Source: Liolophura sinensis (taxonomy: Eukaryota > Mollusca > Polyplacophora > Chitonida > Chitonidae). From it: a stretch of DNA of 64,000 nt. A model generated the notes under the pieces. It had not been told where the DNA came from, made no database searches, and worked only from the letters and a program-made list of their open reading frames with translations. Where the stretch lies: NCBI RefSeq assembly GCF_032854445.1, contig NC_088295.1, positions 90,566,644 through 90,630,643 of the forward strand. The letters are read 5' to 3'. The translations under genes and the position numbers were made by a program. Each line of letters opens with the position of its first letter. Position 1 is the stretch's first letter. This document shows, piece after piece, positions 4,929 through 61,099 of the stretch.

Positions 4929-6771
4929 TTACAACATCTCACTGTCCATGGCACTAATACGCCGCTGCTGTACCAGGCGCTCCTGTTGTCGTCTGCGGAA
5001 CTCCTGGAACTCGCCACGCAACCGCTCAAACCGCTTCTCACTGTCACTGTAAGCGCTCTGTCGACGTGGTTTGGGATACAGTTCTGAGTAAAACTCATGC
5101 GGACTGGTGTAAGGTCTGCCTGGGATGTGGAATTCTGTGCCCGGAGAACGGTTACCCGATAACACATCTGCAATGTCTGAGTCTGTCGGGTGAGTAGTGT
5201 CAAACTCATAGTTCTCATCACCAGACACGTCCTTCCTGTGGTTCCCGCTGGCATCAGCGAATGGGGAAGAGTCCATACTGAGGTCGTGCTCCTGGTGGGT
5301 GGCCAATGAGCTGACAGACGTGCTGCCCTTTTGGTGACGCCCTGGTCCAGAAGACCCTGTGCTCTGAGAGATGTTCCGACTGCCTATCCCTGAGCTCTGG
5401 CTGAATGAATCAGGTACCGCGTCCCCGTATGAGCGCCGGTAAGTGTCCCAGTATGGCTTTCCCCTCCCTACACTACTACCCCGCCCAGAACTGCTGAGGC
5501 TGGTCCGTTTGTCCCCCACCCCCTTGTAAGGAGCAATGTCCCGAGCATACCCATAAGGCTGGGGGTGGAATGGCTGAGGTATGTCTCTTCTGACTGCCTG
5601 ATCCTCATGGGGCAGGCCTAGGCCCGGGGATTGATGCCCTGGGGGAGGGGTGTAAGCTTGCGATCTCACCCCATAACTGTTATGGTCCCCAGACCCTGGC
5701 CTTCCCCGCCCACGTCGTGCCCTAGGCAGGCGACGCACTCTGTCCACTGTGCCCTGTAAACGATCCCTTAAGTAGTTGGCTGCAGCTGGCTCCTCCTGGC
5801 TGTCGTCATGGAAATGACTCGTATCAGGCTCCATGTAGTCGTCTGTGTAAGGGGGAATGTGGATAGGGCCAGGTTTTATCGGAGTGATGCCGGTGGTACG
5901 TGAGAATGGAGAGCGGGGCGTGGGAATCCTTATTGGGAGGCTGCTGACATCCTGGTATGGGGTCTGACTGGGGTCATGTAGTGGGGTCTCCGACATGGTG
6001 GAGGGGTAGGGGCCTTGGGAGGAGTCAGGTAACACAGAACTGATGTCACTGTCTAACCGCCATGGTGGGTGGGGCTCAGGGTCCCCGGTCAGGTAGGTCT
6101 TGTGACCTGAGGGTTTCACGGAGCTATGACGGGGAAAGCCCGGCCGTGTGGGGTGCCTAGGCTGTCCACCATCTGTCTGATCACCCTCTGGGGAGTAGAG
6201 GGAGTGGTAGGGTCCGTCATAACCTCCAAATACTGACGGGGTGCGAGGACTACGGACATGTTCCTCCTGAGGAATCGTGGATGGCTCCTCATTATTCGGT
6301 CCCATGTAAGAATCCCCCGAAAATGAGCGTTGACCTCTGTGAGGTGACCTTGACTGCGGCCTTGACCTCACTGTCTCTGACCAACTTCTCTGGCGTGGTG
6401 TCTCTCTGTCGTACTGGCTTGGCTCATGTGGAGTTATCTCCCTTCCATATGGAGTTGTGTCTCTCTCATATGGGGATCTCCTGTAGGAGCCCCGGAATGG
6501 ATCAATTGAATCTACAGACAGACTGGCTTCGTTGTCTCCAGGGTGCAAATTGAGGATAGGGGCAGGGCTGGGGCTGGGTCGACTCTGTAGCCCATGGGGG
6601 TCTCCATGGAATGAGTGTCTGGGGTCTACGTGTCCCCGGGAGACAAGCCCCAGAAAACCATTGTCGTCGTTGTAGTCTGTCTGCGCCTGAGACACCAGGT
6701 AGATGTTGGAATGGATCAGAGAGTTTCCTCTTCGGCTGGACTCCCACTGATCCCGTTCTGACGAATCTTCA
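4929..6771 (-). CDS. tutl: Turtle-like exon: cytoplasmic tail, stop codon
   Basis: This last coding exon encodes residues 650-1263 and ends in TAA at 4929-4931. The acceptor reads TTTCAG on the minus strand at 6772-6777. The first base completes a split Arg codon with the preceding exon. The tail is rich in Ser, Pro, Arg, Gly and Tyr, with repeated SPR, SPF and TPY-like motifs, an RGRGRPG basic stretch, and no predicted fold, as expected for the long tails of this family. The last ~40 residues form a basic, coiled-coil-like helix (FERLRGEF, EFRRRQQERL) and end in Ser-Glu-Met-Leu, which fits a class III PDZ ligand (acidic at -2, hydrophobic at 0) only loosely. The coding sequence carries a GTTATCTCCCTT word at 6433-6444 that also recurs in noncoding DNA here. 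Confidence 0.92.
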
Positions 6772-8013: not shown

Positions 8014-11000
8014 CATAAGGTTGAATACCACCAGAACAACAACACATGAATAATACATGTATGTAAACCAATAAAGAATAAGGTGAAGGACAGTTGAGGT
8101 ACAAGACAGAGAAACTGGTGGACAGAAATAAGAATGTTAATAATTACACAAAAAGAATTTAAATATAAAATTTAAATATAAAAAAGAGACAGAAAACAAC
8201 TGAATAAAGACTGTGAAATGAACAGGGTATTGTAAATTTTTATAAACTGAGAAATACTGGAATTAAAATGCAAATACAGAGAAAGAGATCACCTTTTTTA
8301 TGTTTCCTATGATAGCGGTATAAAGAAATAGAGATGGTTAGTACATACATGTACTTGTAGTAGACCCATGCTAGTCTCTCAATGTCATGTTACTCTCAAT
8401 ATAAACATGTGAATATGTAAAAAAAACAAAAAAACACAGCTTCCTTACAAAAGCACAACAGTTTTGAAAAGAAAGCAAGCAATGATATTCAAATTTAAAT
8501 ACTTATACTCTCACTGACCTTTTCAAAAGTGTTAGCAGAAAAAAATTCAATTTATTTTGGACTTAAATATTAGCTGTATGAAAAATAAGCCTGTATATTT
8601 AGAATTAATCTTCATTTGCTCCTACTGTGATACATAGGTCTGAAATGGTCCATGGAGTACCAGCTGGTCAACACAAATGTACAAACAATTACAATTGTAC
8701 ATACCGTATCACAGCGTCATCTAAATTGTACTTTGGTCCGGTGTACCGAACATTATCTGAAAAAAAAAAGTACACCTCAGTTTATAAAATGCTAAATGTG
8801 AGTGGCTCAGCATATAGCCCTTCCATATCCCAACCGCATGCCTTCTGTCTTTCTTAGGCCTTCACAGCTGACATGATCTCCAGTAATCTCAGTTATTTGT
8901 TTGCATCCCTGATATGAGATCTGTGATATTTAGAAGACAAAGATGTCCTTCATCTATATAGCACCGGCGAAAGCACCAGACCCTGTGTGGCCTGTGTTTA
9001 GTTCAAGTATACATCGTACACCCTCTACCACGGACGTAAATATGTGTTATGTCTTGGTTTACAAAAAAAGCACCTGTGAACAGATGCTTGATATCTTACT
9101 TTGATTCGATTGTTGTTTAACGATACACACAAATGCAAGGATTTTGGCTCAGGCAGATTTATGGATGGAGGAAACCAGAGCAGACATCTGACTTCCCACA
9201 TGTGATGTACAGATATGCACACAGTTTAATCTATGGAGGAAACCAGAGCAGACAACTGACTTCCCACATGTGATGTACAGATATGCAAACAGTTTAATCG
9301 ATGGAGGAAACCAGAGCAGACATCTGACTTCCCACATGTGATGTACAGATATGCAAACAGTTTAATCCATGGAGGAAACCAGAGCAGACATCTGACTTCC
9401 CACATGTGATGTACAGATATGCAAACAGTTTAATCGATGGAGGAAACCAGAGCAGACATCTGACTTCCCACATGTGATGTACAGATATGCAAACAGTTTA
9501 ATCCATGGAGGAAACCAGAGCAGACATCTGACTTCCCACATGTGATGTACAGATATGCAAACAGTTTAATCGATGGAGGAAACCAGAGCAGACATCTGAC
9601 TTCCCACATGTGATGTACAGATATGCAAACAGTTTAATCCATGGAGGAAACCAGAGCAGACATCTGACTTCCCACATGTGATGCACAGATATGCAAACAG
9701 GTTTATGGATGGAGGAAACCAGAGCAGACAACTGGCTTCTGGCAAGTCACCAACAAACTTTACCACGTGTGATGTACAGATATGCAGACAGTTTTCCTTC
9801 AATGACATTTAGACTGCATGAATGGCCTAAGGAGTATTATTGTCACCACAAGCAGTTAACCCTGGGTAATCCACTAATTCCCTGTCATAGGCCAGATTTG
9901 AACATGCAACCTGGTGTCCCAGTAATCGAAAGGCAAGCACCATCTCCCAAACTGACGGTTCCAACTCCTGCTGTTTTGTTTTTGCATAGCACTTTTAAAA
10001 TCTGGATAATTTTAACACCTACAACATACCATATTTTTTTGTCCTATCTCGTTCTCTTCTTCTACTGCACAAACAAGCTATCACCGCTAGGAGAATTGCA
10101 ACCAGTAAAAAGGCTATTGCCCCAATTATTGCACCAATCACAGGCCATGTTACCCCACCTGCAACAAAAAGTCACATAAGGTCAATAGCGCACCCTAACT
10201 TCCTACATGATTATGTAGGTGTCAGGTGTTCATAAACAACCTCCAGTTGAAGGTTATACACAGTACTGCTTACAAAATCTGCCACTGCTGACAAAGTGCT
10301 TTTTGGACTGAAGCATCAAACATGGCTTTCTCCTCATCTCACCGCACAAAGAAGGGACAAACATACACATAAATATAGGTAATAACGGATTATATATTGT
10401 AGCTACATGTCTCTATGGAGAAACCACTACATCTGTGTCCAAGCTGCAAGACTCTTGGGGAAAACTGAGACTAGTCAGCTTTTACCATACAATACTGGAT
10501 TTATTTTAGTCTTTGCCAGCAGGGTAAATTATATACTGGCACATGTCTTAGCATACAATGTAAGCTATACTAGGCTTTAGATAAAACAACAACAAACACG
10601 TACAAGCACCAGAATATTGATGAATGTATGAGGGGACAAACACTGAGGGGACCACCTTCTGACTATGGAGACACAACTGAGCGGGATGTACTATTTTAAA
10701 TGATTTAGAACGGCTATCAGAAAGCACTGACAGAATAACCTTCAGCCAGATCATTATCACTGACAAATGTCAGTTTGATACACAAATATCATATGGCATA
10801 ATAAAACACTTCACAGACAAAAATATCAAACAGAAAACCCAAACAGAATGTACAGAATAATACAAACACATTAGGGTAGGTCTACTTAAAAGAGAATGCA
10901 CACTTGATAAACAAAACGATGTGAACAATCTGCCACAATGTTATATATACAAAGCCTGTGTCATTAACTTCATTAAAGGAATATATACATAAAGAGTAAC

Positions 11001-14000
11001 CTGTCACTACACAACAACTGTGGATAGGGCAGGTGCAAATACAGAGAGGGGAATACATAAAGGGAGACAATCTGTTAGAGTGAACAAGGGGAGAGAACTG
11101 TGAGTGAGAGAAGTGAGTAGTACCACTAGAGTTGGAGGAAGATGACGATGTCGTGGATTCTGTTCCTCGTACAACTGTAAATAAATGTTAGTATAAGCCT
11201 TAGGTTAGTATAATCCTTTGATTAATATGATCCTCTGGTTAGCATAATCCTTACGCTAGTATAAAGATGTTTTACCACAATCCTACAGTTAGTAGACGCA
11301 TTCGACAGACATGATATGGCACATGGGACTTTTGTAAGCATAATCCTGTGTTTTAAGATGAAGAGAATGATGTTAAACAACCACAGGAATATGCAATTTA
11401 GATTTCAGCATCTTTGCAATTATTTGTGATGCTGACTTAAACCAAATTTCAGCATGCGCATAATTTAAAAAAAAAACCCATCAGTAACAGACAGAAAAGA
11501 ACTTAAACAGTCTGAATTAGACGCCATTGTGTTTCAAAGATATGAATTCTCGTGGTCTGTTGCTCTTCAAGATTTACATCACCCTGAAACACTAGTTCTA
11601 TATACAAATGCATATTATATAAGCTATGATGAAATCATTTTACCATAAATATGGAAACCTTAAACACACATATATTAGCACACACAATAACTTAGCCCAC
11701 ATGTACACTGTGAGTTAGAAGACCTATGCCCATCCATACTGTACGGCTGAGGGTTAATCTCAGTTTACACTCACCCGACCGTGGTGCTGGCACATAGATA
11801 TTTACAGCACTGCTAGGCAGGCTGTATGCCAGCACTCCAAATGACAGCACCCGAATGTCATAGGCCATCCCACGCTTCATAGATTCCCAGGTGTAAAAAG
11901 TCTGGGGCACTTTGATCTTCTTTTTATGGATTTGTTCCCAGATACCTTCTTCTTGACGTGATTGGATCACGTAGTAAAAGACGGGCACCGTGGAGTTGAT
12001 AGGTGGCGCCCAAGTAATGTGCACTTTGCCGGGCTCAATCAGCCGAGCACTCACATTACGGGGAGGGCTAGGCTGAGGACCTGTGGGTAACGAATAAATA
12101 CATACATGAAGTAGGAGAAGTACATGTATACCAAAAGTGCAAAGTTGTCTCCCCTATATGCAAAGTTGTCTCCTCGTAGTGCACACCTCCAACCATCCCC
12201 ACCCCCGCACACCTTTGGCAGAACAACTGTCAGTGTTTATACACCGTTAAATAACATTTCACAAATACTGCAACATAAATTATCACCATAATCAAAAAGT
12301 TAAGGTTGGTAAATTAAACATGCAAAAGGTTGAAGAAAATTGATATAGAACACCCATACATGCAGGGGTTCACAGAAGTCAGTTTTTCACATACCACCAC
12401 TTTCTGGGCGAAATTGATTTTTTTTTTCTCCACCGAACATTTGAGATGATTAAATTGAATATTTTTGTACCTTTCTATCCTTCATTGACCAAAATAATTA
12501 TCACTGCCTATATATGAACTCCAGCTACCCTCCTAATTGATAAGCCAAACGGATAATCAGCGCACATTGCAGTCATTCAGGATACAGGATTCAAGATACA
12601 CTGGTATTTCAGGATACCAGTCCAGTGAAGTGTGAAGGCCTGCCCAGAAAACTTACAACCGAGGACATCAGTCTAGACTGACAAACTCACAACGTGAAAA
12701 ATTGGTCTTGACATCACTTTTAAAAAATATTCAATGGTCATGAATGAAGACAGAATGGCAATGCATTAATGGCTTTTGGAATATGTCCTTGTCACTCTGT
12801 AAAACAACAAAGAATGTCAAAATGAAGAAATAAAAAAACATTTGTGACAATCAAAAAGATGAATGTTCTGTTCATTATCTAAATTTTCTTGAAATATTAT
12901 CCTTACTTGTTAAAAAAGATTTCAATCAACAAAAGCATTTCAAAAGGAAGTGTGATCTGACTTAGGTCCATGTAGGTCAAATTATTCATAAGGACTGATT
13001 TGGGAAACCAAAGAAGCTTATTATGTGTCAGAATAATCCAATAACTGCCTTCTAATCTAATCAACGAAGAGGGTCATGAAGATTTCTGTAAAATGGAGAT
13101 AAATTGTAACACGAACAGCTTGCTTCGTTGAACTTTGGATATGTTCATATTGAGTTTTGTAAAAGTTTGAATACTTCCTTCAATAAAAAACCTCAAATGG
13201 AATAAATATAACCAGTTATTGAGTTTTATATTCAATCGATGGACCAAATACAAGTATGTCCATGAACCCGTGAGATGTGCAATGTATGTTCACAGCAAGT
13301 ACCTCTCACAACGAAAAATCTATTGAGCAGAAACTGAAACTATTTGAAGAAAATTACACTCTTTGCTATATTTATATATGTTTGAATAGACATGTCAAAC
13401 ATCAAAACAATAACTTCATGTTACAATAATGAATAGTGGTGAAATGTTTTATAAATCTGTATTCGGTTTTCTGCTTACTCAATGAAACAACTAATGAATG
13501 GATATAAATGTATGTCAGTATACGTGCTGGTTCTTGTTTAACTAATGGCCTAGCTACTAAAGAGATATATGTCACAGTGTTGATGTTTGCTTACCTAATG
13601 ACCTAGCTACTAAAGAGATATATGTCACAGTGTTGGTGTTTGCTTACCTAATGACCTAGCTACTAAAGAGATATAGGCCACAGTGTTGGTGTTTGCTTAC
13701 CTAATGACCTAGCTACTAAAGAGATATAGGCCACAGTGTTGGCGTTTGCTTAACGACTGACCTAGCTACTAAAGAGATATAGGCCACAGTGTTGGTGTTT
13801 GCTTAACTACTGACCTAGCTACTGGAGGCATATATGTCACAGTATTGGTGTTTGCTTACCTAATGACCTAGCTACTAAAGAGACATAGGCCACAGTGTTG
13901 GTGTTTGCTTAACTACTGACCTAGCTACTGGAGGGATATATGTCACAGTAGTGGTGTTTGCTTACCTACTTACGTAGCTACTAGAGGGATATATGTCACA

Positions 14001-17000
14001 GTGCTGGTCTTTACTTACCTAATGACCTAACTACTGGAGGGATACATGTACATGTCACAGTCTTGGTGATGCTTACATATTGACCCAACTAATGGAGGGA
14101 TATATGTTGTAGTGCTGGTGATTGCTTACCTATTGACCTAACCAATGGAGGGATATATGTTGTAGTGTTGGTGATTGCTTACATATTGACCTAACTAATG
14201 GAGGGATATATGTTGTAGTGTTGGTGATTGCTTACCTATTGACCTAACTAATGGCGGGATATATGTTGTAGTGTTGGTGATTGCTTACCTATTAACCTAA
14301 CTAATGGAGGGATATATGTTGTAGTGTTGGTGATTGCTTACCTATTAACCTAACTAATGGAGGGATATATGTTGTAGTGTTGGTGATTGCTTACCTATTA
14401 ACCTAACTAATGGAGGGATATGTGTTGTAGTGTTGGTGATTGCTTACCTATAGACCTAACTAATGGAGGGATATATGTTGCAGTCTGGGTGTTTGCTTAC
14501 CTATTGACCTAACTAATGGAGGGATATATGTTGTAGTGTTGGTGATTGCTTACCTATAGACCTAACTAATGGAGGGATATATGTTGCAGTCTGGGCGTTT
14601 GCTTACCTATTGACCTAACTAATGGAGGGATATATGTCACATTGTTGGCTTTTGTAGGAAGAGCAGTTGCCACACCATCGACATAACCTGGAAAAAAAAT
14701 AACATAAGATTAAAGAAAGTTTATTACTAAAAGAACAAAACTAATGTGAAAATCATCATTAATTTAAAATACAAATTTCTCCCTAGACAGAGATAGAAGA
14801 TTCAACATATATTTATTCCACAACGAGTGGGAACTTGTTTGCTAGGATATCAAATCTGAAACATGCTTGTTACATTTCACCAATATGGTGTGCATATACG
14901 TCATATGTGGGCATGTTTGTGGGGCATGTATGTGGGCATGTGTGTGGGCATGTATGTGGGCATGTTTGTGGGCATGTTTGTGGGCATGTTTGTGGGCATG
15001 AATGTGGGCATGTATGTGGGCATGTTTCTGAGCATGTATGTGGGCATGTTTGCAGGCATGTACACTGTATGTGGGCATGTTTGCTGGCATGTATGTGGGC
15101 ATGTTTGCAGGCATGTTTGTGAGCATGTATGTGGGTATGTTTGTGAGCATGTTTGTGGGCATGTTTGTGAGCATATATGTGGGCATGTTTGTGAGCAAGT
15201 TTGTGGGCATGTTTGTGAGCATGTATGAAACATGTATGTGGGCATGTTTGTGAGCATGTTTGTGGGCATGTTTGTGAGCATGTATGTGGGTATGTTTGTG
15301 AACATGTATGTGGGTATGTTTGTGAGCATGTATGTGGGCATGTTTGTGAGCATGTATGTGGGCATGTTTATGAGCATGTATGTGGGCATGTTTGTGAGCA
15401 TGTATGTGGGTATGTTTGTTAGCATGTATGTGGATATGTTTGTGAGCATGTATGTGGGCATGTTTGTGAGCATGTATGTGGGCATGTTTGTGAGCATGTA
15501 TGTGGGCATGTTTGTGAGCATGTATGTGGGCATGTTTGTGAGCATGTATGTGGGTATGTTTGTGAGCATGTATGTGGGCATGTTTGTAAGCATATATGTG
15601 GGCATGTTTGTGAGCAAGTTTGTGGGCATGTTTGTGAGCATGTATGAAACATGTATGTGGGCATGTTTGTGAGCATGTATGTGGGCATGTTTGTGAGCAT
15701 GTATGTGGGTATGTTTGTGAGCATATATGTGGGCATGTTTGTGAGCATGTATGTGGGCATGTTTGTGAGCATGTTTGTGAGCATGTATGTGAGCATGTAT
15801 GTGGGCATGTTTGTGAGCATGTATGTGGGTATGTTTCTGAGCATGTATGTGGGCATGTTTGTGAGCATGAATGTGGGCATGTTTGTGAGCATGTATGTGG
15901 GTATGTTTGTGAGCATGTATGTGGGCATGTTTGTGAGCATGTTTGTGGGCATGTTTGTGAGCATGTATGTGGGTATGTTTGTGAGCATGTATGTGGGTAT
16001 GTTTGTGAGCATGTATGTGGGCATGTTTGTGAGCATGTATGTGGGCATGTTTATGAGCATGTATGTGGGCATGTTTGTTAGCATGTATGTGGGCATGTTT
16101 GTGAGCATGTATGTGGGTATGTTTGTGAGCATGTATGTGGGCATGTTTGTGAGCATGTTTGTGGGCATGTTTGTGAGCATGTATGTGGGTATGTTTGTGA
16201 GCATGAATGTGGGCATGTTTGTGAGCATGTATGTGGGTATGTTTCTGAGCATGTATGTGGGCATGTTTGTGAGCATGTTTGTGGGCATGTTTGTGAGCAT
16301 GTATGTGGGTATGTTTGTGAGCATGTATGTGGGCATGTTTGTGAGCATGTATGTGGGCATGTTTGTGAGCATGTATGTGGGCATGTTTGTGAGCATGTTT
16401 GTGGGCATGTTTGTGAGCATGTATGTGGGTATGTTTGTGAGCATGTATGTGGGTATGTTTGTGAGCATGTATGTAAGTATGTTTGTGAGCTTGATGGTTC
16501 ATGTGGGAAACAGCAGAATAAAAAAATTAACAAATTTATTATCGCGCTACATATGTTGCATTTCGTAGTGTTAAATTTCAAATGTACATGTTGCTTTCTA
16601 TCTAGCATGTGCCCATGTGCACAGTTCCAGAATACATGTAACACAATGAGTGTTCAACTCATCTGACCTTAGCTTAGTTATATACTCAATTGGACTGCAT
16701 TGGATTTAATTCTCTTTCTGCAGAGTAATGGCTTTCTGAGGGTATAAAATCTTACATAACTGATTTTAAAATTGAGTTGAATTTAATGAGTGGCTGACAA
16801 AAATTTAGCTTTCCTCCCCCAGTAGCCAAACCCCTCAAGTCCAAACCCAACAGACAAAACCCTTTCAGCTAAACCCCCAGAAAACTAAACAAATCACCAG
16901 AAAAAATTTCTGTTTGCCAAAACCCACAGTTAATCAACCCCTACTCTCCGAATCTAAACTTTAGTTTTGGAAAAAAGTAAATGCTTCCAATTTTTGTTAT

Positions 17001-20000: not shown

Positions 20001-23000
20001 GCTTTAACTTTAGTCTTTAGTAGCGCAATGTTAAGAGCACGAGAAGTCTGCTGTAGTTACTTTTAGATCTAGTATTGTTGAAACTGAAGTGTGCATGTGA
20101 CTAGAAAAACAAGAGGTGCTTTTTTAACGAGCAATAAGACTCAAGTGAGCAAAGGCAGTTTTCCTTAGCAAAATGTTGTTTCTGCAAAGCAACTTCACCA
20201 TAAATAGCATCCAAATAAACTAAAATAAATGATCAATAATTTCCTACTCAAAATGTACGTCATGGTTTTTAGTAACTTTTGCACCACCCAAACAACTCAT
20301 CCTGTGTTCATCAAAACTTGACAAAACCACACAGGCTGCTAATTTCTCAGCTATCTACCTCTAAATCAGAAAAATCTCCTGAATATGAGGATTCTACTGG
20401 GCACATGATAAAGAATAAACCTCCACCCCCTCCCTGTAGGACAGACCCTGGAGTTAATGATAAGACAGGTAACATGTCAGACATGGACAGGTTCACCTCA
20501 GACAGAGGTACGACACACACGACGTGGCTTTCAGCAGTACACTTGTCACACTCACCTAGTGTCCGGGCTCGTATCACAACACTGGGCATCCCATTCCCTT
20601 TGATGTTGCGGGACAGGACATAAAATTCGTAGAGGGAGTCCGGCTCCAAGTTATAGACTGTGATGGAGGTGGAGCTATCTGGTACAGGCATGGTCTGCCA
20701 CTCACTGGTCGCCATGCGTGTGTTTCTGTACCTGAGCCAGGTTAAAACAACAGTATCTGCTGATCACACCATCATTTAGGGGTTAATTATCCCATCCATC
20801 CAAACCACATTGTCTCCTCACTCCCAATTATCTCAGCCATCAAAAACAAAGCTTGTCCCTTCACTTACCAATGTCTCACCCATCCAAAACAAGCTTGTCC
20901 TCTCACCCCCAATTATCCCACCCATCCCAAAAAAAGCTTGTCCCCTCACTCTCTTCCATTATCTCACCCATCCAAAACAAGCATGTCCCCTCACTCCCCA
21001 TTGCCACCCATCCCTTGCCCTCCGAAACAACCGCATCTCCACACTCCTTATTGTCCCACCCATACAAGAAAAGCTTGTCCCCTCACTCTCTTCCATTATC
21101 TCACCCATCCAAAACAACCTTGTCCCTTCATTCACCCATTATCCCACCCATCCAAAACAAGCTTGTCCCCTTACTCTCTTCCATTGTCTCACCCATCCAA
21201 AACAAGCTTGTCCCCTCACTACCCATTATCATACCCATTCAAAACAAGCTTGTCCCCTCACTACCCATTATCCCACCTATCCAAAACAGGCTGGTCCTCT
21301 AACCCCCATTACAAAACAACCTTGTACTCTCTCCCCAATATCCCACCCATCCAAAACCACATTGTCCCCTCACTCCCCATTATCTCACCCATCCAAAACA
21401 GCTTGTCCCTCTATCCCACCCCTAATGGACAAGCTTGTCCCCCTACTCACCACAGTATATAATGCTGCTCTGAGCCCCCATCATAGGCCGGAGCCCAGCT
21501 GACACGGGCGTGAAACAAACCCATAGAGATGGTCAGGTTACGGGGCGCATGAGGAGTGGTACCTGCACAGGTAAGTGACGATCACCATATAAGGGTCAGG
21601 ATAATACTTTACCATGATGACAATAACAAGAGAAATCACCACTGATAAATAGTTTTATACACTGCTCACTAGAATAAAGGCATATCATTCACCGCAAAAC
21701 TGGAATCAACGCAATGGTGTGGTGTCAACAATTTTGTTTGTTTGTTCGAGTATCAATATATTCTCTAGAAAACGGGGCAAAATTATTGCCTGAGTGGTGG
21801 GAATTTGGTTGAAAAACATTATCAATCTGTTATGTAAATAAAAATAGAAATATAACAGAGTCTTGATTCAGGGATAAAGCAATGGTAAATCACTTTACAC
21901 ATGATAATGTATCATTTTTGCAAAACCTTATTGCGAGACATGCAAGAATTTTTTGGTTATTTTACATTTGTTTTATTAAATTGGGTAACTCAAGCAACAC
22001 AAGTGCCTGAAATTCTTGTGTACATTTTGTATCATACTGTACAACTGTCATCAGTCACGTTCAGAATTCTGCTTATTCCAGCCATTACAAATTATCTCCC
22101 TTTTCAGGATTCGATTTTGCGCAGATTTAATTATAACACGATATGAATCTTTCGGGTCCAGATGAGCGCGTTATTTCAAGGGAGCAGTGTACATGTAATA
22201 ACAAACCATTAAATGACATGAAACCAATGTGTCAGCAAAAATATTCCCCAAATCAGCATCTAATACCAGAATAATATGTAGCCCTTGTTGGAGATTTAAG
22301 AATAGGCCTATGCAATGAACTGAACACATCAATTCCTGACACACTTAATCAGTACATAAAACTGAATCCTGGCACATCCAAGAGACATACGGACAAGCAG
22401 CTCACCTTCTATATACAGTGTGGTTAACCTGACAATACTGGTGATAGTGTTTGTAGCGATACACTCGTATTGGCCGTAGTCAGACTTCTGTAGGTTTGTT
22501 ATGGTCAGGTTCCCCCCAACCTGCCGAATTCGGTCCTGGAGAACTAAACTTTTACCATCCTGCAACACACAGACATCAGGATGTACATCTGTAATCTCAA
22601 CTCTACTTCTGCCTTTATTCTTCTGACTGGATCAAACTCATACCTAGCGATACCTAGGCCAGTCAAAATGAATGTGTTTGGAATAATACTTACAACCCAT
22701 CATGATTACGAGCATCACTGACTGATGGTAAGATGAAAAATTGTACCCTCCTCACCACTGTTTCTTCCTTACATCGAAAACGGTCCAAAAATTGGAGAAC
22801 TGTCATGCATGAATGTGCTTTAGTGTGCAGTTTTATGTGTGTAGCAATACATTATGGCAATGCAGTCAGGGAAAGCCCTTGTCATCTCACATTACCTGAA
22901 AATGTGTTGATAACGTTACCTTTTTCCAGGTGATGGAGGGTACAGGTGAGCCTGTGGCCGCACACGGCATTGTGACGCTCTCTGATGGGGTCCTCTGATA

Positions 23001-49078: not shown

Positions 49079-49479
49079 CTGAAATCAACACATAACAAAG
49101 TAAGAATTTCTCACTTGCAGAACAAATGTTTAAAAAATATTTGATGTGGTATATTTCAGGTACTGAAAGCTACTTTAGATGCAAACTAACTCAACAGTAT
49201 TAAGATAATCTCAGTGTTTTCTATTTGTAACTGTATGTCAGAAGTTAAGAAAAGGAATGAGGGGAGACTACTCTGTATAATGTTCACAAATCACTGCTTG
49301 GCAAATGCCTTGACATTACTGATGATCAGGCGCCCTTTGGCCCTATTTTAAACTTCACCTTTCTTTTGCTTGCAATCTTTTAGGGTGTATGGAATATAAC
49401 GGAAGAAAAAAAAAACAAAAACAGTGAAATAGTCTAAACTAAAAGTAGAGGATAAATCAACCCATCCAAAGGTAATGAT

Positions 49480-50140
49480 GTACAGAAATCAGCTCCCCAG
49501 AGCACAGAGCCTGCAACAATGGGATAAAGAAGTAGCAGCCGTGAGAGAAAGCAGAATAAACCTGTCGCTTCAAGACTGATTGCATGTGACTCTTCAGCAT
49601 CTGTTTCCTTCTGCTTAATCTAGCGGTTAAGGATGCAAATACGCTACACTTTTTTATCCATGGCTAAATTGCAGGCTGGCCTATCAGCAGCTGTCATGAA
49701 GGGCTGACCAATTGCCAAGCACGAGACAGACAACACTGTCGCTCAGATACCACGGCAGCGGCACACTCATTTAAACAGTCTATTCACAGATTTATCTCCC
49801 CTCAGAGAGCAAAGAGAAAGGAGATCAATTTATTAGGTGTCCACAGGCTAATGTTGGGCTACAGCAATCTACAGCAATGGCCATCTATCAGCTTCAAAAA
49901 AAGCACCTCCTCTTCTAGCCTAGCCTTGTTCCTGAGGAAAACAAACCAGAACATCGGAGCCTGCAAATGGAGAGCCCTCCAAACAGATCTGTCATTGCAA
50001 TAACTACACACACTGCTTGTCCAGAAACAAATAAAAAGAAAAAAATCCCTAAACAGCGGGTCAATAGCTGCCGCTCAAGACCTGTGACTTTACGGCTTCT
50101 CCAGACTTTTTCTTAGTGAAATAGATAGACAGAAAAAGTG
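49480..50140. promoter_or_regulatory. Candidate intronic cis-regulatory segment
   Basis: A repeat-free, mixed-composition stretch close to the Ig2 exon. It contains AACAATGG (SOX-type, 49514-49521), the perfect octamer ATGCAAAT (POU-type, 49633-49640) and CAGCTG (E-box, 49688-49693). Such words also occur by chance, so the call rests on clustering and on sequence complexity compared with the flanking arrays. Confidence 0.25.
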
Positions 50141-50274
50141 GAGCGTAATCAAAGCAAAACAGTGTGACAGTAACATACAGACTTAATCACATCCTTTGAG
50201 TACAAGGATTTACTCGAAAAATCAAATGTACATTTGCATTTGTTACCATTTACAATTTAATCCTACAACATACA

Positions 50275-50905
50275 TGTATTTCTTCATTTCACACACATGT
50301 ATTTATCATTCCACACACATGTACATGTATTTATCATTCCACACACATGTACATGTATTTATCATTTCACACACATGTACATGTATTTATCATTCCACAC
50401 ACATGTACATGTATTTATCATTCCACACACATGTACATGTATTTATCATTCCACACACATGTACATGTATTTATCATTCCACACACATGTACATGTATTT
50501 ATCATTTCACACACATGTACATGTATTTATCATTCCACACACATGTACATGTATTTATCATTCCACACACATGTACATGTATTTATCATTCCACACACAT
50601 GTACATGTATTTATCATTCCACACACATGTACATGTATTTATCATTTCACACATATGTACATGTATTTATCATTCCACACACATGTACATGTATTTATCA
50701 TTCCACACACATGTACATGTATTTATCATTCCACACACATGTACATGTATTTATCATTCCACACATATGTACATGTATTTATCATTTCACACATATGTAC
50801 ATGTATTTATCATTCCACACATATGTACATGTATTTATCATTCCACACACATGTACATGTATTTATCATTTCACACATATGTACATGTATTTATCACTTC
50901 ACATA
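50275..50905. repeat. 28-bp minisatellite, about 22 copies
   Basis: The unit is CACACACATGTACATG followed by TATTTATCATTC, with TTTC/TTCC and ACACAT/ACATAT variants. Each unit contains ACATGTACATGT, a 12-bp inverted repeat. Three overlapping frames stay open for over 200 codons (His/Tyr/Phe/Ile-rich); these are repeat artefacts. Confidence 0.96.
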
Positions 50906-51075
50906 CATACAGCTGTATTTATTCATTTTATTTATTAGATTGTTGCTCCACACCATGTTCAAGAAATCTGTTACTTATACAAGGACTGCCAGTGTTATGA
51001 GTGGATGAGACCAAAGTGCCCTTAATAAACCACCAATCTTATGCCAAGTTACTGACAAACTTGCCCTGGTGAGAC

Positions 51076-51215
51076 AAGATTTTGATTGGTGTTTTGTGCT
51101 ATACTCAAGAATATTTCACTTCTATGACAGTGGCCAGCAATATAGTTGGAGGAAAAGGGCAAACCAGTGGAAGTTCGCAACCATCTGCAGATCTTCGCAC
51201 TTATACAGAGGGAGG
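51076..51215 (-). mobile_element. Diverged SINE fragment (3' half)
   Basis: Read on the minus strand it matches the 3' half of the SINE at 35382-35652: GCTGGCCACTGTCATAG, AAGTGAAATATTCTTGAGTA and AAAACACCAATCAAA. The tRNA-like head is missing. It abuts the left edge of the 43-bp array. Confidence 0.8.
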
Positions 51216-51229
51216 GGAAGGCAGCATGA

Positions 51230-54200
51230 GCCACCTGTAATAGTGGACAGGAGAGTGACCAACACCTTCATTCACATGTATAAGTGGACACAAGAGAGTG
51301 ACCAACATCATCATCCACAAGTATTAGTGGACACAAGAGAGTGACCGACATCATCCACATGTATAAGTGGACACAAGAGAGTGACCAACATTATCATCCA
51401 CATGTATTAGTCAAGAGAGTGACCAACATTATCATCCACATGTATTAGTGGACACAGAGAGTGACCAACATCATCCACATGTATTAGTGGACACAAGAGA
51501 GTCACCAACATTATCATCCACATGCATTAGTGGACACAAGAGAGTGACCAACATTATCATCCACATGTATAAGTGGACACAAGAGAGTGACCAACATTAT
51601 CATCCACATGTATAAGTGGACACAAGAGAGTGACCAACATTATCATCCACATGCATTAGTGGACACAAGAGAGTGACCAACATTATCATCCACATGTATA
51701 AGTGGACACAAGAGAGTGACCAACATTATCATCCACATGCATTAGTGGACACAAGAGAGTGACCAACATTATCATCCACATGTATTAGTGGACACAAGAG
51801 AGTGACCAACATTATCATCCACATGCATTAGTGGACACAAGAGAGTGACCAACAATATCATCCACATGTATTAGTGGACACAAGAGAGTGACCAACATTA
51901 TCATCCACATGTATAAGTGGACACAAGAGAGTGACCAACATTATCATCCACATGTATTAGTGGACACAAGAGAGTGACTAACATCATCCACATGTATTAG
52001 TGGACACAGAGAGTGACCAACATTATCATCCACATGTATTAGTGGACACAAGAGAGTCACCAACATTATAATTCACATGTATTAGTGGACACAAGAGAGT
52101 GACCAACATTATCATTCACTTGTATTAGTGGACACAAGAGAGTGACTAACATCATCCACATGTATTAGTGGACACAAGAGAGTGACCAACATTATCATCC
52201 ACATGTATTAGTGGACACAAGAGAGTGACCAACATTATCATCCACATGTATTAGTGGACACAAGAGAGTGACCGACATCATCCACATGTATAAGTGGACA
52301 CAAGAGAGTGACCAACATTATCATCCACATGCATTAGTGGACACAAGAGAGTGACCAACATTATCATCCACATGTGTTAGTGGACACAAGAGAGTGACCA
52401 ACATTATCATCCACATGTATTAGTGGACACAAGAGAGTGACCAACATCATCCACATGTATAAGTGGACACAGAGAGTGACCAACATCATCCACATGTATA
52501 AGTGGACACAGAGAGTGACCAACATTATCATCCACATGTATTAGTGGACACAAGAGAGTGACCAACATTATCATCCACATGTATTAGTGGACACAAGAGA
52601 GTGACCAACATCATCCACATGTATAAGTGGACACAAGAGAGTCACCAACATTATCATCCACATGCATTAGTGGACACAAGAGAGTGACCAACATTATCAT
52701 CCACATGTATTAGTGGACACAAGAGAGTGACTGACATCATCCACATGTATTAGTGGACACAAGAGAGTGACCAACATTATCATCCACATGTATTAGTGGA
52801 CACAGAGAGTGACCAACATTATCATCCACATGTATTAGTGGACACAAGAGAGTGACCAACATTATCATCCACATGCATTAGTGGACACAAGAGAGTGACC
52901 AACATTATCATCCACATGTATAAGTGGACACAAGAGAGTGACCAACATTATCATCCACATGCATTAGTGGACACAAGAGAGTGACCAACATTATCATCCA
53001 CATGTATTAGTGGACACAAGAGAGTGACCAACATTATCATCCACATGTATTAGTGGACACAAGAGAGTGACCAACATTATCATCCACATGTATAAGTGGA
53101 CACAAGAGAGTGACCAACATTATCATCCACATGCATTAGTGGACACAAGAGAGTGACCAACATTATCATCCACATGTATTAGTGGACACAAGAGAGTCAC
53201 CAACATCATCCACATGTATTAGTGGACACAAGAGAGTGACTAACATCATCCACATGTATTAGTGGACACAAGAGAGTGACCAACATTATCATCCACATGT
53301 ATTAGTGGACACAAAAGAGTGACCAACATTATCATCCACATGTATTAGTGGACACAAGAGAGTGACTAACCACATCCACATGTATTAGTGGACACAAGAG
53401 AGTGACCAACATTATCATCCACATGTATTAGTGGACACAAGAGAGTGACCAACATTATCATCCACATGCATTAGTGGACACAAGAGAGTCACCAACATTA
53501 TCATCCACATGTATTAGTGGACACAAAAGAGTGACCAACATTATCATCCACATGTATTAGTAGACACAAGAGAGTGACCAACATTATCATCCACATGTAT
53601 TAGTGGACACAAGAGAGTGACTAACATCATCCACATGTATTAGTGGACACAAGAGAGTGACCAACATTATCATCCACATGTATTAGTGGACACAAGAGAG
53701 TGACTAACATCATCCACATGTACTAGTGGACACAAGAGAGTGACCAACATTATCATCCACATGTATTAGTGGACACAAGAGAGTGACTAACATCATCCAC
53801 ATGTATTAGTGGACACAAGAGAGTGACCAACATTATCATCCACATGTGTTAGCTGACACAAGAGAGTGACCAACATTATCATCCACATGTATTAGTGGAC
53901 ACAACAGAGTGACCAACATTATCACCCACAAGTATTAGTGGACACAAGGGAGTGACCGACATCATCCACACGTATTAGTGGACACAAGAGAGTGACCAAC
54001 ATTATCATCCACATGTATTAGTGGACACAAGAGAGTGACCAACATCATCCACATGTATAAGTGGACACAAGAGAGTGACCAACATTATCATCCACATGTA
54101 TTAGTGGACACAAGAGAGTGACCAACATTATCATCCACATGTATTAGTGGACACAAGAGAGTGACCAACATTATCATCCACATGTATTAGTGGACACAAG

Positions 54201-55592
54201 AGAGTGACCAACATTATCATCCACATGTATTAGTGGACACAAGAGAGTGACCAACATCATCCACATGTATAAGTGGACACAAGAGAGTGACCAACATTAT
54301 CATCCACATGCATTAGTGGACACAAGAGAGTGACCAACATCATCCACATGTATAAGTGGACACAAGAGAGTGACCAACATTATCATCCACATGTATTAGT
54401 GGACACAAGAGAGTGACCAACATTATCATCCACAAGTATTAGTGGACACAAGAGAGTGACCAACATCATCATCCACATGTATTAGTGGACACAAGAGAGT
54501 CACCAACATTATCATCCACATGCATTAGTGGACACAAGAGAGTGACCAACATTATCATCCACATGTATAAGTGGACACAAGAGAGTGACCAACATTATCA
54601 TCCACATGTATTAGTGGACACAAGAGAGTGACCAACATCATCCACATGTATTAGTGGACACAAAAGAGTGACCAACATTATCATCCACATGTATTAGTCA
54701 AGAGAGTGACCAACATTATCATCCACATGTATTAGTCAAGAGCTCGACCAACATTATCATCCACATGTGTTAGTGGACACAAGAGAGTGACCAACATTAT
54801 CATCCACATGTACTAGTGGACACAAGAGAGTGACCAACATTATCATTCACATGTATTAGTGGACACAAGAGAGTGACCAACATTATCATCCACATGTATT
54901 AGTGGACACAAGAGAGTGACCAACATTATCATCCACATGTATTAGTGGACACAAGAGAGTGACCAACATTATCATCCACATGTATTAGTGGACACAAGAG
55001 AGTGACCAACATCATCCACATGTATAAGTGGACACAAGAGAGTGACCAACATTATCATCCACATGCATTAGTGGACACAAGAGAGTGACCAACATTATCA
55101 TCCACATGTATTAGTGGACACAAGAGAGTGACCAACATCATCATCCACATGTATTAGTGGACACAAGAGAGTGACCAACATCATCCACATGTATTAGTGG
55201 ACACAAAAGAGTGACCAACATTATCATCCACATGTATTAGTCAAGAGAGTGACCAACATTATCATCCACATGTATTAGTCAAGAGCTCGACCAACATTAT
55301 CATCCACATGTGTTAGTGGACACAAGAGAGTGACCAACATTATCATCCACAAGTATTAGTGGACACAAGAGAGTGACCCACATCATCCACATGTATAAGT
55401 GGACACAAGAGAGTGACCAACATTATCATCCACATGTATTAGTGGACACAAGAGAGTGACCAACATCATCCAGATGTATTAGTGGACACAAGAGAGTGAC
55501 CAACATTATCATCCACATGCATTAGTGGACACAAGAGAGTGACCAAGTGTATTAGTCAAGAGCTCGACCAACATTATCATCGACGCGATGAT
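51230..55592. repeat. 43/40-bp minisatellite, 4.36 kb, about 100 copies
   Basis: The unit is AGTGGACACAAGAGAGTGAC, CAACATTATCATCC and ACATGTATT; a 40-bp form reads CAACATCATCC. Further variants are ACATGCATT and GTATAAGT. The rare word AGAGCTCGACC occurs at about 54740, 55282 and 55559; the first two sit in the same variant context, showing a ~542-bp higher-order duplication. Largest array in the window, no coding potential. Confidence 0.97.
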
Positions 55593-55789
55593 CCAAATGT
55601 AATTATCAATGTATCAAACCAGCAGGCACATATATACATCTATCACTTCATCAACACGTGAACATGCTGAAAGTACAGAGGGATGTCAGTCCGAAGTTAC
55701 TGGAGTCAGGGCTTCATTGTTAACCCTGAATTCCTGCCTAGTCTTCCCGGTCTTGGGTGAGTAATGACCCTATACCCCTATTAAAGTAG

Positions 55790-56258
55790 AAGAAAGCTAA
55801 AATATGAAGTAAGATTCATCTTATAGACAAGTGAAAACCATGCATAAAAATACTTTCATGTACTTTTTCAGCTTTTTTAAAAGGCATGTTGTTGAAAGGC
55901 ATTAAAATATTTCAATAATATGGTGGGCTTTATGAGCTATACTGACGGCATCTAAGAACTATGACATCACATCACATTTTTTTTCCTGATGTTCACCAAA
56001 AGGAAGGAATTTTTGGTAACGTTATTTCAGTAATCTTTCACCCATTGGCAGAAAAAGTTGAAAAAACTTCCTGTGACGTCAGAGTTCCTAACCTCAAAGA
56101 GTACAGTCCATAGTGCCACATTAGAATTCAAATGTTTGAGGGCCTTTAATTTTTTTCACAAAAATTTGAAAAAACAAATGAAAGCATATTTAAGTACAGT
56201 TTTAAGTGATCTATTTAGTGATGCCTACTTCAATTTTTGGAGCTCTTTTCCTTTCACT
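55790..56258. mobile_element. Dispersed repeat, copy B, with a single internal unit
   Basis: Matches copy A at 34442-35381 on both sides of its array, and has one ATATGGTGGGCTTTATG to GACATCACATCAC unit where copy A has nine. A perfect TGACGTCA is at 56074-56081. At the point where copy A bears the SINE, this copy reads CTCTTTTCCTTTCACTT, which serves as an unoccupied-site comparison. Confidence 0.7.
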
Positions 56259-56274
56259 TGTGCACCCTGTCCCT

Positions 56275-56505
56275 TTTTTACCAGGCACACAGTTGACACA
56301 GTCTCCAGATGCCACCTATACCCCTTTTCTACCAGGCACAGTCTCCAGATGCCATCTATACCCCTTTTCTACCAGGCACAGTCTCCAGATGCCACCTATA
56401 CCCCTTTTCTACCAGGCACAGTCTCCAGATGCCATCTATACCCCTTTTCTACCAGGCACACAGTCTCCAGATGCCACCTATACCCCTTTTCCACCAGGCA
56501 CAAAT
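56275..56505. repeat. 40-bp minisatellite, about 5.5 copies
   Basis: The unit includes CACAGTCTCCAGATGCCACC and TATACCCCTTTTCTACCAGG. Copies alternate between GCCACC and GCCATC. It begins just after copy B of the dispersed repeat. Open frames are artefacts. Confidence 0.95.
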
Positions 56506-56899
56506 TATTATGCTCATTATTATCAGTACCACTCTTCACTTCTAGTTAAGAGGCTGCCCAGAGACAGCTCGCTATTTTAAGGGACATGCCCATTATTCAA
56601 GACTTAAAATTTGTCGTCCCAGTATCATCAAATGAGAGGCATTAACAGCACATAAAGGTTTTGTCACACATCTCGGCTATCCTACTGAGGCTTTCCCCTC
56701 AGATCATAAAAATCAGCCTAGACTCCCTAAACCCTCCAAAAAAGTGTATTACACACCCTAACCTCCCTCAAACCTTCCACAAAAAGTGTATAACAGGTGA
56801 TATTTCCCCATTACAAAACATTCTGTGCCTTCTGTTAGCTATAAACAGCTGTGTGCCAGGCTTGATTACACCTGCACGAAGCACGCCTTGATCATTATC

Positions 56900-57335
56900 C
56901 AGCTTCTTCAGCCTCCCACAGCAGAATATAAATTCTAACCAGTCTAATCATTATAAATAATTGACAATAAAACTTCTATGATCGGAAGTGGCTTGTTTTT
57001 TTTCTCACAGTGTTGGGTTGAGAGGTGTGCTTCTGACAGTAGAGTGCCTATACCCTTAAAGACCAATGCTGTAAGGAAGGGACAACAAGGCCCGGGTCTG
57101 ACGCCAATAGACAAGGGACGGATTTCAAGGGGTCATACACAACTTGTCTCTTTCAGTGCCAGCCATCAGTTTGATATTTCTCCCCTAGCTGCAGCAATCA
57201 GCTCCATGTGCCCAGCACATTGTTTTGGAGCTCTCTGTGCCAGAGTTGATGTGTCCCCAAGGAGGGGCAACAGACAAACTGCAGCCTGGAGCACCTCAAG
57301 TAAAACATCCTACAATACACCAAGCTAAAGGTATG
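56900..57335. other. Unique, mixed-composition segment, function unknown
   Basis: A repeat-free stretch less AT-rich than its surroundings, with an open plus-strand frame of 116 codons (56978-57328) that has no recognised domain and no splice context. It is more likely an intronic noncoding segment than a gene. Confidence 0.3.
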
Positions 57336-58379
57336 AACCATTCTGTAGAAAGTTAGATTTTAGCACGTGTTAAAATATCTGAAATAAGACAAAGTTTTTG
57401 ATGTACTTGATGTATGTTTTTTTGTAGACCCTTAAAGTCTACAAAAACCTGCTTAGAACAGTCTACAGAGATGACTTCTGAATTCTATGCACTTGTACAC
57501 TGTCAAATCAACATCCACCTACACGTAAATTTATATTAAGACATAAATAAAGAAAAAAGTACATACAAGAATGCAACACGTTACACTATATTTTAATTTT
57601 AACTGCTGCATTTGTGTATCCAAAATCATGATGTATCATTAGGTTTCTGTAGACCACATTTACTAGCATTATGATTATCTCATCATAACTAACAATTTAT
57701 GTCCAAGTTTGACCCACTATATCTTCACAGTTTTGTGATAACTTCTCAGCTTTCTTACATTTTTTCTGAGTTTTGATTGAATGGCTACATCAACATGATA
57801 CAAGATACACCTTCAGCAACTGTAAAGTGATTCTTTCATTCTGATGGAAATGTTTTTGATATGTTTATACAATATCATCAACATAGGTTCCTGTAGTGTG
57901 CCTAGTCACTTTTCTGTGATAACTTTCTGTTTTCTGATATTAATATTTCATGTGATCACTGCACTATAATTTTTGTGAAGACGCACTCTGCACTGGAATC
58001 ATAAAGCTTGTTGTACATGTGGGCAATTTACAGTTATAGACACAACCATTAGATGGATGCATTTGCCAACAAAGACACCTATATCTCGGTCTTAATCAGG
58101 CAGATTGGATTAGATGGCTGTGGATTCTGAAGTACAGCCACATGCATCAGTGAGAGGGTGTGGCTGTTCCTGATAGGCCCAGAAAACTACAGACAACTTA
58201 AGCATGATGTACACTTTAATGGTGCTACCACCTCAGACCAGTGAATTGTCTTAGGAGTCCAAGTTTACACCATTATCACTCAACTTTACACCTGGCTAAT
58301 TAGATAGAATGTATCCCTGCTGATCAGCGCTGGTGATTTGCACCTGTACATGGATAAATAATTTACAAAGACTAATGGG

Positions 58380-58720
58380 TACGTCAGCTATTCCATACCG
58401 ACTCGGGGAGCAATAACTCACCGGAAGCCGTGCACAAAGATCTGCTTAAACCATCCCTCCAACAATTCTCATCATAAATCCCAACTTTTTACATGCTCAT
58501 ATTGCATTTTGGCAGAGGCGGCTTTTAGATCCGTTTAATTATTCAAAGAGAGCAGAGTCATTTCCGAAAATCCTGTCTGGCTGCCTGTAGAAGCCGGCCG
58601 CCTGGATTTGTAGTGCAGTAATTATCTCTTAATCAACACAAGGACATGGCTGTATCAGGAGAGACTGGAGTCATCCCACAGGGAGACAAAGCTTTATAAT
58701 GTTCATCTGAGACATCCAGG
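58380..58720. promoter_or_regulatory. Candidate intronic enhancer
   Basis: A repeat-free segment with two homeodomain cores TAATTA (58536-58541 and 58619-58624), a Tcf/Lef-like ACAAAGATC and a SOX-like AACAATTC, near a GC-rich patch GAAGCCGGCCGCCTGG. The texture resembles conserved noncoding elements in long first introns of neuronal genes. Only cross-species comparison could establish this. Confidence 0.3.
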
Positions 58721-59214
58721 ATATAGCTTTAATACATAAGATGTGTGCATTTACAGTCTCTCAGATTTGTCCCTCCTCAAAACCAGCATCCCTGTGCAAA
58801 GCTGGTTATAAGTCTGAAATACTCACATACAATTATCAAAATAATGCCTTTCAAGATAATATGGACATCCACTGAGAAATGAAAAAGAAGTCATGCCTTG
58901 TCATGGAATGGTATACACAAATTGCAGTACACACTTGTAGCTGGAGAAACACTAATGTGCATGTAGTGCCCTATATCTTACTTGAAAGGATTCTGTTTCA
59001 CATAACCTCAGATTAACTTCAGATGTGTAACCGTACGTAACTCTTCAAATGTAGTTTTCAAATTGCAATCTCTGTTAAACAATTTTAACAATTTTCATAT
59101 CTAGAGTAGAGATCGTTAGCTGTAGGGTTTTACAAAAATTTTTCTCTCTCAAATCTTAATTTCATTTACATGTACCTGTATAAAAGGCCTTCATGCCAAT
59201 GTGACCCATGTGCT

Positions 59215-59685
59215 ATCACCCACTGTAGCTCTGGACTTGGCACCAATAGGATCCCTAGACTACCACCATTGGCAACAATGGGCTCTCCACTAATGGGATC
59301 CCTGGACTGCCACCCATGGGAACCCTGGAATCCACACCTATCAGAGCCCTGCATTTCCCACCAATAGGATTCCTGGAAACCCTGGATTCTCCACCAATGG
59401 GAACCCTGAACTTTCCTCCCATGGGTACCCTGGAATCCCCACCAATAAGAACCCGGGGCTCCCCATCAGCGGAACCCCTGGATACTCCACCAATGAGAAC
59501 TCTGGACTTCCCTCCCATCGGAACACTGGACTCCCCTCCCATGTGAACGCTCGGCTCCACCACCAATGGGAACCATGGGCTCCCCGCCAAAGGGATCTCT
59601 CGATTCTCCACCCTTGGGAACCTGGATTTCTCACCACTGGGATTTCTGGACTTCTCACCCACAAGAACTCTGGACTAGCCACTCA
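59215..59685. repeat. 24-bp degenerate tandem array, about 19 copies
   Basis: The unit resembles GGGAACCCTGGACTCC followed by CCACCAAT, with many substitutions and a few length changes. The period keeps frames open on both strands (PPMGTLD-type and GGESRVP-type), with no biological support. Confidence 0.92.
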
Positions 59686-60870
59686 GGCTTACGTGTTACC
59701 TCAGCAGCGTAAACACAACTAGCCACTGAGGTTATTATGTTACCTCAGCAGTGTAACTACAACTAGCCACTGAGGTTAGTATGTTACCTCAGCAGTGTAA
59801 ATACAAACTAGCCATTCAGGTTAGCATGTTACCTCAGCAGTGTAAACACAAACTAGCCATTCAGGTTAGCATGTTACCTCAGCAGTGTAACTATGACTTG
59901 CCAATCAGGTTAGCATGTTACCTCAGCAGTGTAAACACAAACTAGCCATTCAGGTTAGCATGTTACCTCAGCAGTGTAACTACAACTAGCCATTCAGGTT
60001 AGCATGTTACCTCAGCAGTGTAAATACAAACTAGCCACTCAGGTTAGCATGTTACCTCAGCAGTGTAAATACAAACTAGCCATTCAGGTTAGCATGTTAC
60101 CTCAGCAGTGTAAACACAAACTAGCCATTCAGGTTAGCATGTATCCTCAGCAGTGTAAATACAAACTAGCCACTCAGGTTAGTATGTTACCTCAGCAGTG
60201 TAAACACAAACTAGCCATTCAGGTTAGTATGTTGCCTCAGCAGTTTAACTATGACTAGCCACTCAGGTTAGAATGTTACCTCAGCAGTTTAAACACAAAC
60301 TAGCCACTCAGGTTAGCATGTATCCTCAGCAGTGTAACTACAACTAGCCACTCAGGTTAGCATGTTACCTCAGCAGTGTAAACACAAACTAGCCATTCAG
60401 GTTAGCATGTTACCTCAGCAGTGTAACTACAACTAGCCACTCAGGTTAGCATGTTACCTCAGCAGTGTAAATACAAACTAGCCACTCAGGTTAGCATGTT
60501 ACCTCAGCAGTGTAAATACAAACTAACCATTCAGGTTAGCATGTTACCTCAGCAGTGTAAATACAAACTAGCCACTCAGGTTAGCATGTTACCTCAGCAG
60601 TGTAACTACAACTAGCCACTCAGGTTAGCATGTTACCTCAGCAGTGTAAATACAAACTAGCCACTCAGGTTAGCATGTTACCTCAGCAGTTTAAACACAA
60701 ACTAGCCATTCAGGTTAGCATGTTACCTCAGCAGTGTAACTACAACTAGCCACTCAGGTTAGCATGCTACCTCAGCAGTGTAAATACAAACTAGCCACTC
60801 ACTTAGCATGTTACCACAGCAGTGTAACTACGACTAGCCACTCAGGCTGGCATGTTGTAACTACAACTGG
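59686..60870. repeat. 45/44-bp minisatellite, about 26 copies
   Basis: The unit includes ACTAGCCATTCAGGTTAGC, ATGTTACCTCAGCAGTG and TAAATACAA. ACTAGCCACTC and AACTACAACT (44-bp form) variants are interspersed, and copies degrade at 60.78-60.87 kb. Noncoding. Confidence 0.96.
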
Positions 60871-61099
60871 CCACTCAGGCTTGCACGTTACCATAGCTGT
60901 CTTGTTACACTGGCCAGTCATCCAGCTCCACAAAACAATGTACCCAGACAAGGTGTTTAGCCCCCTTCTGATTACAGCCTTCAGGCCCTCATCTCTGGAG
61001 TCAAATCTATCAGTTGGGTGTCTGACAACTCAGTTTCGCAAAGACATTAGCTGTCTGTGCGGTGTGTGATCAGACTTAGTACCATATTGCTTATATCAA

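Follow-up and report, generated by a model that had tools for sequence, protein, structure and literature searches.

We analyzed a stretch of 64,000 nucleotides (nt) of the genome of the chiton Liolophura sinensis (contig NC_088295.1, positions 90,566,644 to 90,630,643; hereafter called the window), whose minus strand carries a predicted adhesion-receptor gene. An intron of this gene contains a 53-bp minisatellite. The array begins inside a short predicted exon, which we call exon E, and repeats the 3' end of that exon together with its splice donor about 20 times. All positions given below without a contig name are those of the window, and the gene features described are on the minus strand.

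The features recognized in the gene are four immunoglobulin (Ig) domains, two FN3 domains, a membrane segment and a tail. According to Pfam, the Ig domains are located near 49.0, 25.8, 25.1 and 22.5 kb, and the positions of the FN3 domains are 20.7 and 12.0 kb; the first half of the last Ig domain (23.0 kb) and the first half of the first FN3 domain (FN3-1; 21.56 kb) were read from the sequence. FN3-1 is encoded by two exons at 21451-21562 and 20556-20731, the second of which ends in phase 1 at the donor CTAG/GTGAGT (here and below, the slash marks the exon boundary). The second FN3 domain (FN3-2) is encoded by an exon at 11775-12080, which starts in phase 1 behind the acceptor CCCACAG/GTCCTCAG. 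The transmembrane exon (10030-10158; GGVTWPVIGAIIGAIAFLLVAILLAVIACLCSRRR), read by eye, lies downstream of exon E, and the last coding exon (4929-6771) encodes the cytoplasmic tail. Scans of 26300-48699 and 49200-63998 revealed no further Ig domain, and the start of the gene may lie outside the window. Receptors of the turtle/IGSF9 group possess five Ig domains, two FN3 domains, one membrane segment and a long tail. We take the architecture of the present gene to resemble theirs, with the subfamily unconfirmed by sequence searches; titin, LAR-type phosphatases, Robo, contactins and Dscam were among the first matches in searches of PDB sequences.

Exon E (14607-14687) is a predicted exon of 81 nt, obtained by an intron scan and translation. 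It encodes YVDGVATALPTKANNVTYIPPLVRSI plus a shared Gly and belongs to the linker between FN3-1 and FN3-2. Its donor, ATAG/GTAAGC, occupies 14601-14610; the last exon base is 14607, and the GT is at 14606-14605. In the intron scan, acceptors scoring at least 5 were paired with donors scoring at least 6 at a distance of 24-400 nt, and the pairs that were open in the required phase were kept. The splice-site weights, which were also applied to the sampled exon edges described later, are approximations not trained on the chiton genome. Three in-frame candidates were found in the 8,476-nt intron, and exon E was at the top with a score of 22.5, the runner-up having 14.1. The best candidate on the opposite strand scored 16.8. 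When the whole intron or its non-repeat part was shuffled by dinucleotides, 200 times each, no shuffle matched the score of exon E. The acceptor of exon E scored 12.8, the highest of the four acceptors scored, and its donor was good. On computational grounds exon E is a sound exon, ahead of the other candidates by a wide margin, and the candidate exon proposed in an earlier note on this DNA, which was made from the sequence, is thus the best one that the intron offers.

It might be argued that exon E is not an exon, that is, that the edge of the array looks exon-like by chance, or that an array unit was recruited late as an exon. The 5' edge of the array in transcript sense indeed lies inside exon E, and 42 of the 81 nt fall within the array as delimited by Tandem Repeats Finder (TRF). 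The other 39 nt show a marginal resemblance to the array (22 of 39 positions, a value matched by 0.6% of shuffles). The combination of acceptor, donor, phase and open frame, however, outdid the rest of the intron, the opposite strand and 200 shuffles, and we regard this explanation as very improbable.

Exon E is symmetric (phase 1-1) and 81 nt long, and the receptor is therefore in frame whether the exon is included or skipped. When it is skipped, the reading frame continues as ...RARTLGPQPSPPRNVS... This clean in-frame skipping is a third outcome, which was absent from the earlier note. It raises the idea that exon E is a cassette, in which the array would disturb the definition of the 3' edge of the exon and cause frequent skipping, with an in-frame receptor whose FN3-FN3 linker is short, and so would tune a 27-residue linker that includes the N-glycosylation sequon NVT. 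The linker without exon E resembles, by eye, an ordinary FN3-FN3 junction, which speaks for this idea. However, the acceptor of exon E is strong and its donor is good, as described above, and a cassette of this kind seems unlikely to us.

The array itself extends from 13564 to 14648, and TRF reported a period of 53, 20.4 copies and 89% matches. A 53-bp array of 20 copies far exceeds chance. Downstream of the exon E donor there are 20 intronic donor copies (13536-14556), 16 of which keep the GT. Their 9-mers start at 14556, 14503, 14450, 14397, 14344, 14291, 14238, 14185, 14132 and 14079 in the proximal half and at 14021, 13968, 13915, 13862, 13809, 13756, 13703, 13650, 13597 and 13544 in the distal half. 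That is, from 14609 to 13544 the spacing is exactly 53 nt, with a single step of 58 nt between 14079 and 14021; a degenerate 22nd copy of the donor is found at 13481, 63 nt beyond 13544. At the 21 donor positions (that of exon E and the 20 intronic ones), TAGGTAAG occurs 15 times (14 of them intronic) and TATGTAAG twice, and the GT is lost in four, which are distal copies. These values bear out the earlier note, which had described an exon end at ATAG/GTAAGC followed by about 20 units carrying it, and a train of near-identical donors.

The same note had stated that the unit repeats the exon end exactly. For the last 31 nt of exon E together with the donor, this is true of the copy that lies 106 nt further on. 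Over the full 53 nt, the identity to the exon copy was 79-87% in the first ten intronic copies and 72-83% in the distal ten, and exactness does not hold at this level. When the segment with the last 31 exon nt is extended to 14529-14637, its copy 106 nt downstream differs by one mismatch, which indicates that the exon end joined in a recent duplication of two units. We also searched the assembly (609,464,459 bases, 632 contigs) with a 131-base query from the array. The search, in which only the best candidates were scored, gave 19 matches, all of them at this locus. The FN3-2 exon, considered as a source of a paralogue outgroup for exon E, matched a single further place in the genome, and that weakly, and was of no help.

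The consequence of using a downstream donor can be read directly from the translation. Reading through the first donor adds GKQTPRLQHISLH, that is, 13 codons, and then meets an in-frame TAG at 14566-14568, exactly as the earlier note had said. The TAG lies 12 nt ahead of the exon end of the second donor; all 20 alternative donors would therefore encode one identical truncated protein, and the choice of donor would be binary (yes or no) rather than graded. The predicted truncated product possesses neither FN3-2 nor the membrane segment. A stop codon upstream of later exon junctions is expected to lead to decay of the mRNA. Since later exon junctions follow this stop, decay of the read-through mRNA is to be expected.

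These properties invite the explanation that the train of donors acts as a regulated switch. Use of any downstream donor would then give a soluble protein that stops after FN3-1, or would depress the level of the receptor by way of mRNA decay, and the dose would depend on the length of the array. In line with it, seven consecutive downstream donors are identical to the real one, and one stop is common to all 20 alternatives. A report on fly turtle, which has a similar architecture, describes diffusible isoforms potent in axon guidance (PMC2739522). A 31-bp variable-number tandem repeat (VNTR) at exon 13-intron 13 of human CBS is tabulated with raised homocysteine and lower activity (PMC1395315). 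Against a switch, the GT is lost in four distal copies. Neither FN3-2 nor the membrane segment would be present in the truncated product, and by the rule stated above its mRNA, with the stop ahead of several junctions, would probably decay. Comparable arrays, moreover, are found at kinase exons and at acceptors, as described next, and the switch appears to us quite improbable.

To see exon edges elsewhere in the genome, we sampled 94 domain exons (41 of 135 kinase matches and 53 of 124 FN3 matches), which were mostly short and were taken with their flanks. Arrays with a period of at least 8 and at least 2.5 copies were counted, and 69 donors and 78 acceptors were above the score threshold. An array ran across the donor in 2 of 69 cases and across the acceptor in 2 of 78. 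By family, the crossings were 2 of 30 donors and 2 of 33 acceptors for kinase exons, and 0 of 39 donors and 0 of 45 acceptors for FN3 exons; counted as exons, 4 of 41 kinase exons and none of 53 FN3 exons had an array across an edge.

Of the two donor cases, L013 is the clearer. In this exon, which we named RTK-like from our reading of its peptide, the exon end DVWSFGILLWETVTM and its donor are repeated in 67-bp units with two exact copies of the donor, and the read-through stop is 17 nt past the donor. In an exon named GRK-like in the same way (L019; G000:C10:22583426-22585035), the units are 65 bp, the TRF array begins 4 nt before the donor, and the exon end is partly repeated, as judged by eye. 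Its real donor, AAAG/GTATGC, scored 8.0, whereas four downstream copies reading AAAG/GTAAGC scored 11.0; the stop is 18 nt past the donor. Of the acceptor cases, L006 (G000:C3:13488885-13490497) is the acceptor-side mirror of exon E: its kinase exon is preceded by units of 80 bp in which the acceptor and the first bases of the exon recur, and the 40-mer at the edge has four near copies. In L005, the units are 37 bp and the array ends 11 nt within the exon.

Donor-like words in tandem are common in this genome. The triple AGGTAAG had 3,092 matches genome-wide and the reversed word 1,452; we do not claim an enrichment from these numbers, for among the matches listed most come from one array. That array, a minisatellite of about 6 kb at G000:C1:1375382-1381670, has units of about 54 bp with TCAGGTAAGG.

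Other arrays are present in the window as well. Most of the short intron that separates the FN3-1 exons is taken up by a 42-44-bp minisatellite (20785-21411). This minisatellite resembles the sequence from position +3 of the donor of the first FN3-1 exon onward (blastn E value of 1e-6), has GTGAG in many units, and includes no clear copy of exon sequence. The largest array of the window has a 43-bp unit and lies at 51231-55546. In all three frames of 49200-63998 Pfam reported a match to CSL4_N, which we attribute to this 43-bp repeat and treat as an artefact.

From the above results we consider it probable that exon E carries a near-neutral exon-edge minisatellite, that the first donor is mainly used, and that the downstream copies are near-silent decoys. 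Arrays at exon edges form a recurrent class that is symmetric between donors and acceptors, and this favors mostly silent decoys over a dedicated switch. Since arrays are found at kinase exons, and at acceptors too, a switch of the receptor cannot be their reason. The conserved kinase exons, whose decoys would truncate the product and in one case score above the real donor, further indicate that the splicing apparatus presumably passes such decoys over. Of the two options that the earlier note had left side by side, a donor switch and silent decoys, the latter fits better.

The most likely course of events is as follows. A tandem duplication spanning the boundary between exon E and the intron would have carried the 3' end of the exon and the donor along, and later homogenization would have kept copying the live donor. 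The spliceosome would mainly pick the exon-proximal donor, which defines the exon together with the strong acceptor ahead of it. Occasional use of a downstream donor would lead to the stop after 13 codons and probably to decay of the mRNA. As for the order, the exon would have come first and the array later; it is the conserved kinase exons, not exon E, that suggest this. The repeat, the copied donors, the frame with its stop and the recurrence at other exons are seen in the sequence; that the first donor is the one mainly used and that the array is near-neutral is what we infer as most likely.

Several of our findings weigh against the reading of near-silent decoys. The first eight donors, including the real one, are identical 9-mers whose predicted pairing with U1 is equal (-9.7 kcal/mol), and weaker U1 pairing of the decoys is therefore rejected for the intact copies. 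Hiding of the decoys by local RNA structure is rejected as well, because the predicted accessibility of the real donor was 0.013, below that of 18 of the 20 copies. With identical donors and no predicted structure hiding the decoys, the sequence gives no reason for the first donor to win. The nine donor positions had a diversity of 0.092 as against 0.21 in the rest of the unit, and 3 of 53 contiguous windows were as low, which weakly suggests constraint. As for the recurrence, it comes from four exons of a single domain family, the kinases. Under a stricter test, in which a 40-mer across the edge had to have a copy of at least 75% no more than 400 nt away, two of the four cases (the donor of L013 and the acceptor of L006) were retained. 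In a titin-like FN3 gene, one of 47 exons had an array, a minor one at the donor (15 bp, 2.5 copies), and no acceptor had one in the 47 of 48 listed matches examined. Tandem repeats made up 28.6% of the window (28 merged arrays); in the sampled exon loci their share was 5.5%, and in the titin-like gene they took up 706 of 54,202 bases (1.3%). The repeat content of the window is about five times that of the sampled loci, and its arrays are thus perhaps atypical. An affinity of minisatellites for donors is unsupported, since the crossings were at two donors and two acceptors and the non-crossing arrays near the sampled exons did not pile up at the edges. For the latter reason seeding at junctions is unsupported too, and chance placement with tolerance suffices.

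The diversity at donor position +1 was 0.34, higher than the mean of 0.21 for the non-donor positions. With this position variable and the GT lost in 4 of 20 copies, the donor core is not maintained in the array, which speaks for near-silent decoys.

Minisatellites of a comparable kind are known. In human IFI6, a minisatellite is reported to give several splice donors to one transcript (cited in PMC4526556, PMC2572611 and PMC2915984). The exon E array likewise supplies multiple donors, here as copies in the sequence. The IFI6 unit is reportedly 12 bp long and keeps the frame, and several of its donors are reported to be used; in contrast, the exon E unit is 53 bp long and shifts the frame. The VNTR of human CBS mentioned above lies at the exon 13-intron 13 boundary (c.1444_1467+7) and has 16-21 copies (PMC2630376, PMC1395315). 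As in CBS, the unit at exon E spans the exon end and the donor, and its length is not a multiple of three. The CBS repeat is reportedly polymorphic and is said, by the title of Lievers et al. (2001), to be tied to enzyme activity, whereas the array of exon E is represented by the DNA of one assembly.

In human FAM20C, an array over a splice junction is said to influence alternative splicing (PMC5941971); the exon E array also overlaps a splice junction, in a different gene. In two green algae, the neighborhood of intron-exon junctions is reported to be significantly enriched in tandem repeats (PMC3887541). Unlike that work, which deals with repeat counts and short GT/AC motifs, the present array copies an exon end. 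An intronic minisatellite of C. elegans, CeRep25B, is linked with alternative splicing (PMC4039745); it is described there as a dispersed family with regulatory motifs, whereas the array of exon E copies the local donor. The exon E locus is thus a further case of the known exon-edge minisatellite with repeated donors, of the IFI6 and CBS kind. No survey of copied exon ends within one genome turned up in our literature search, which covered open-licence papers and was not aimed at molluscs.

We therefore think that the interesting part is the recurrence of exon-edge copying within the chiton genome. Speculatively, chiton genes may harbor very many minisatellites that arose across the edges of exons, every one of them multiplying a genuine donor or acceptor. 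They would together constitute a natural experiment on the choice that the spliceosome makes among identical sites, and in a few genes, such as the present receptor, the proportion of an isoform that is soluble or decays would depend on array length. We regard this wider view as unlikely. For annotators, donor models in such genomes will meet many equal candidates. A series of identical donors spaced by a few dozen bases, of which only the first is safe, offers a clean test of donor choice in vivo, and the GRK-like exon with its higher-scoring downstream copies is a good natural test of the same kind. If exon-edge arrays are even roughly as common as our sample hints, existing RNA data could answer how splice sites are chosen without any engineering.

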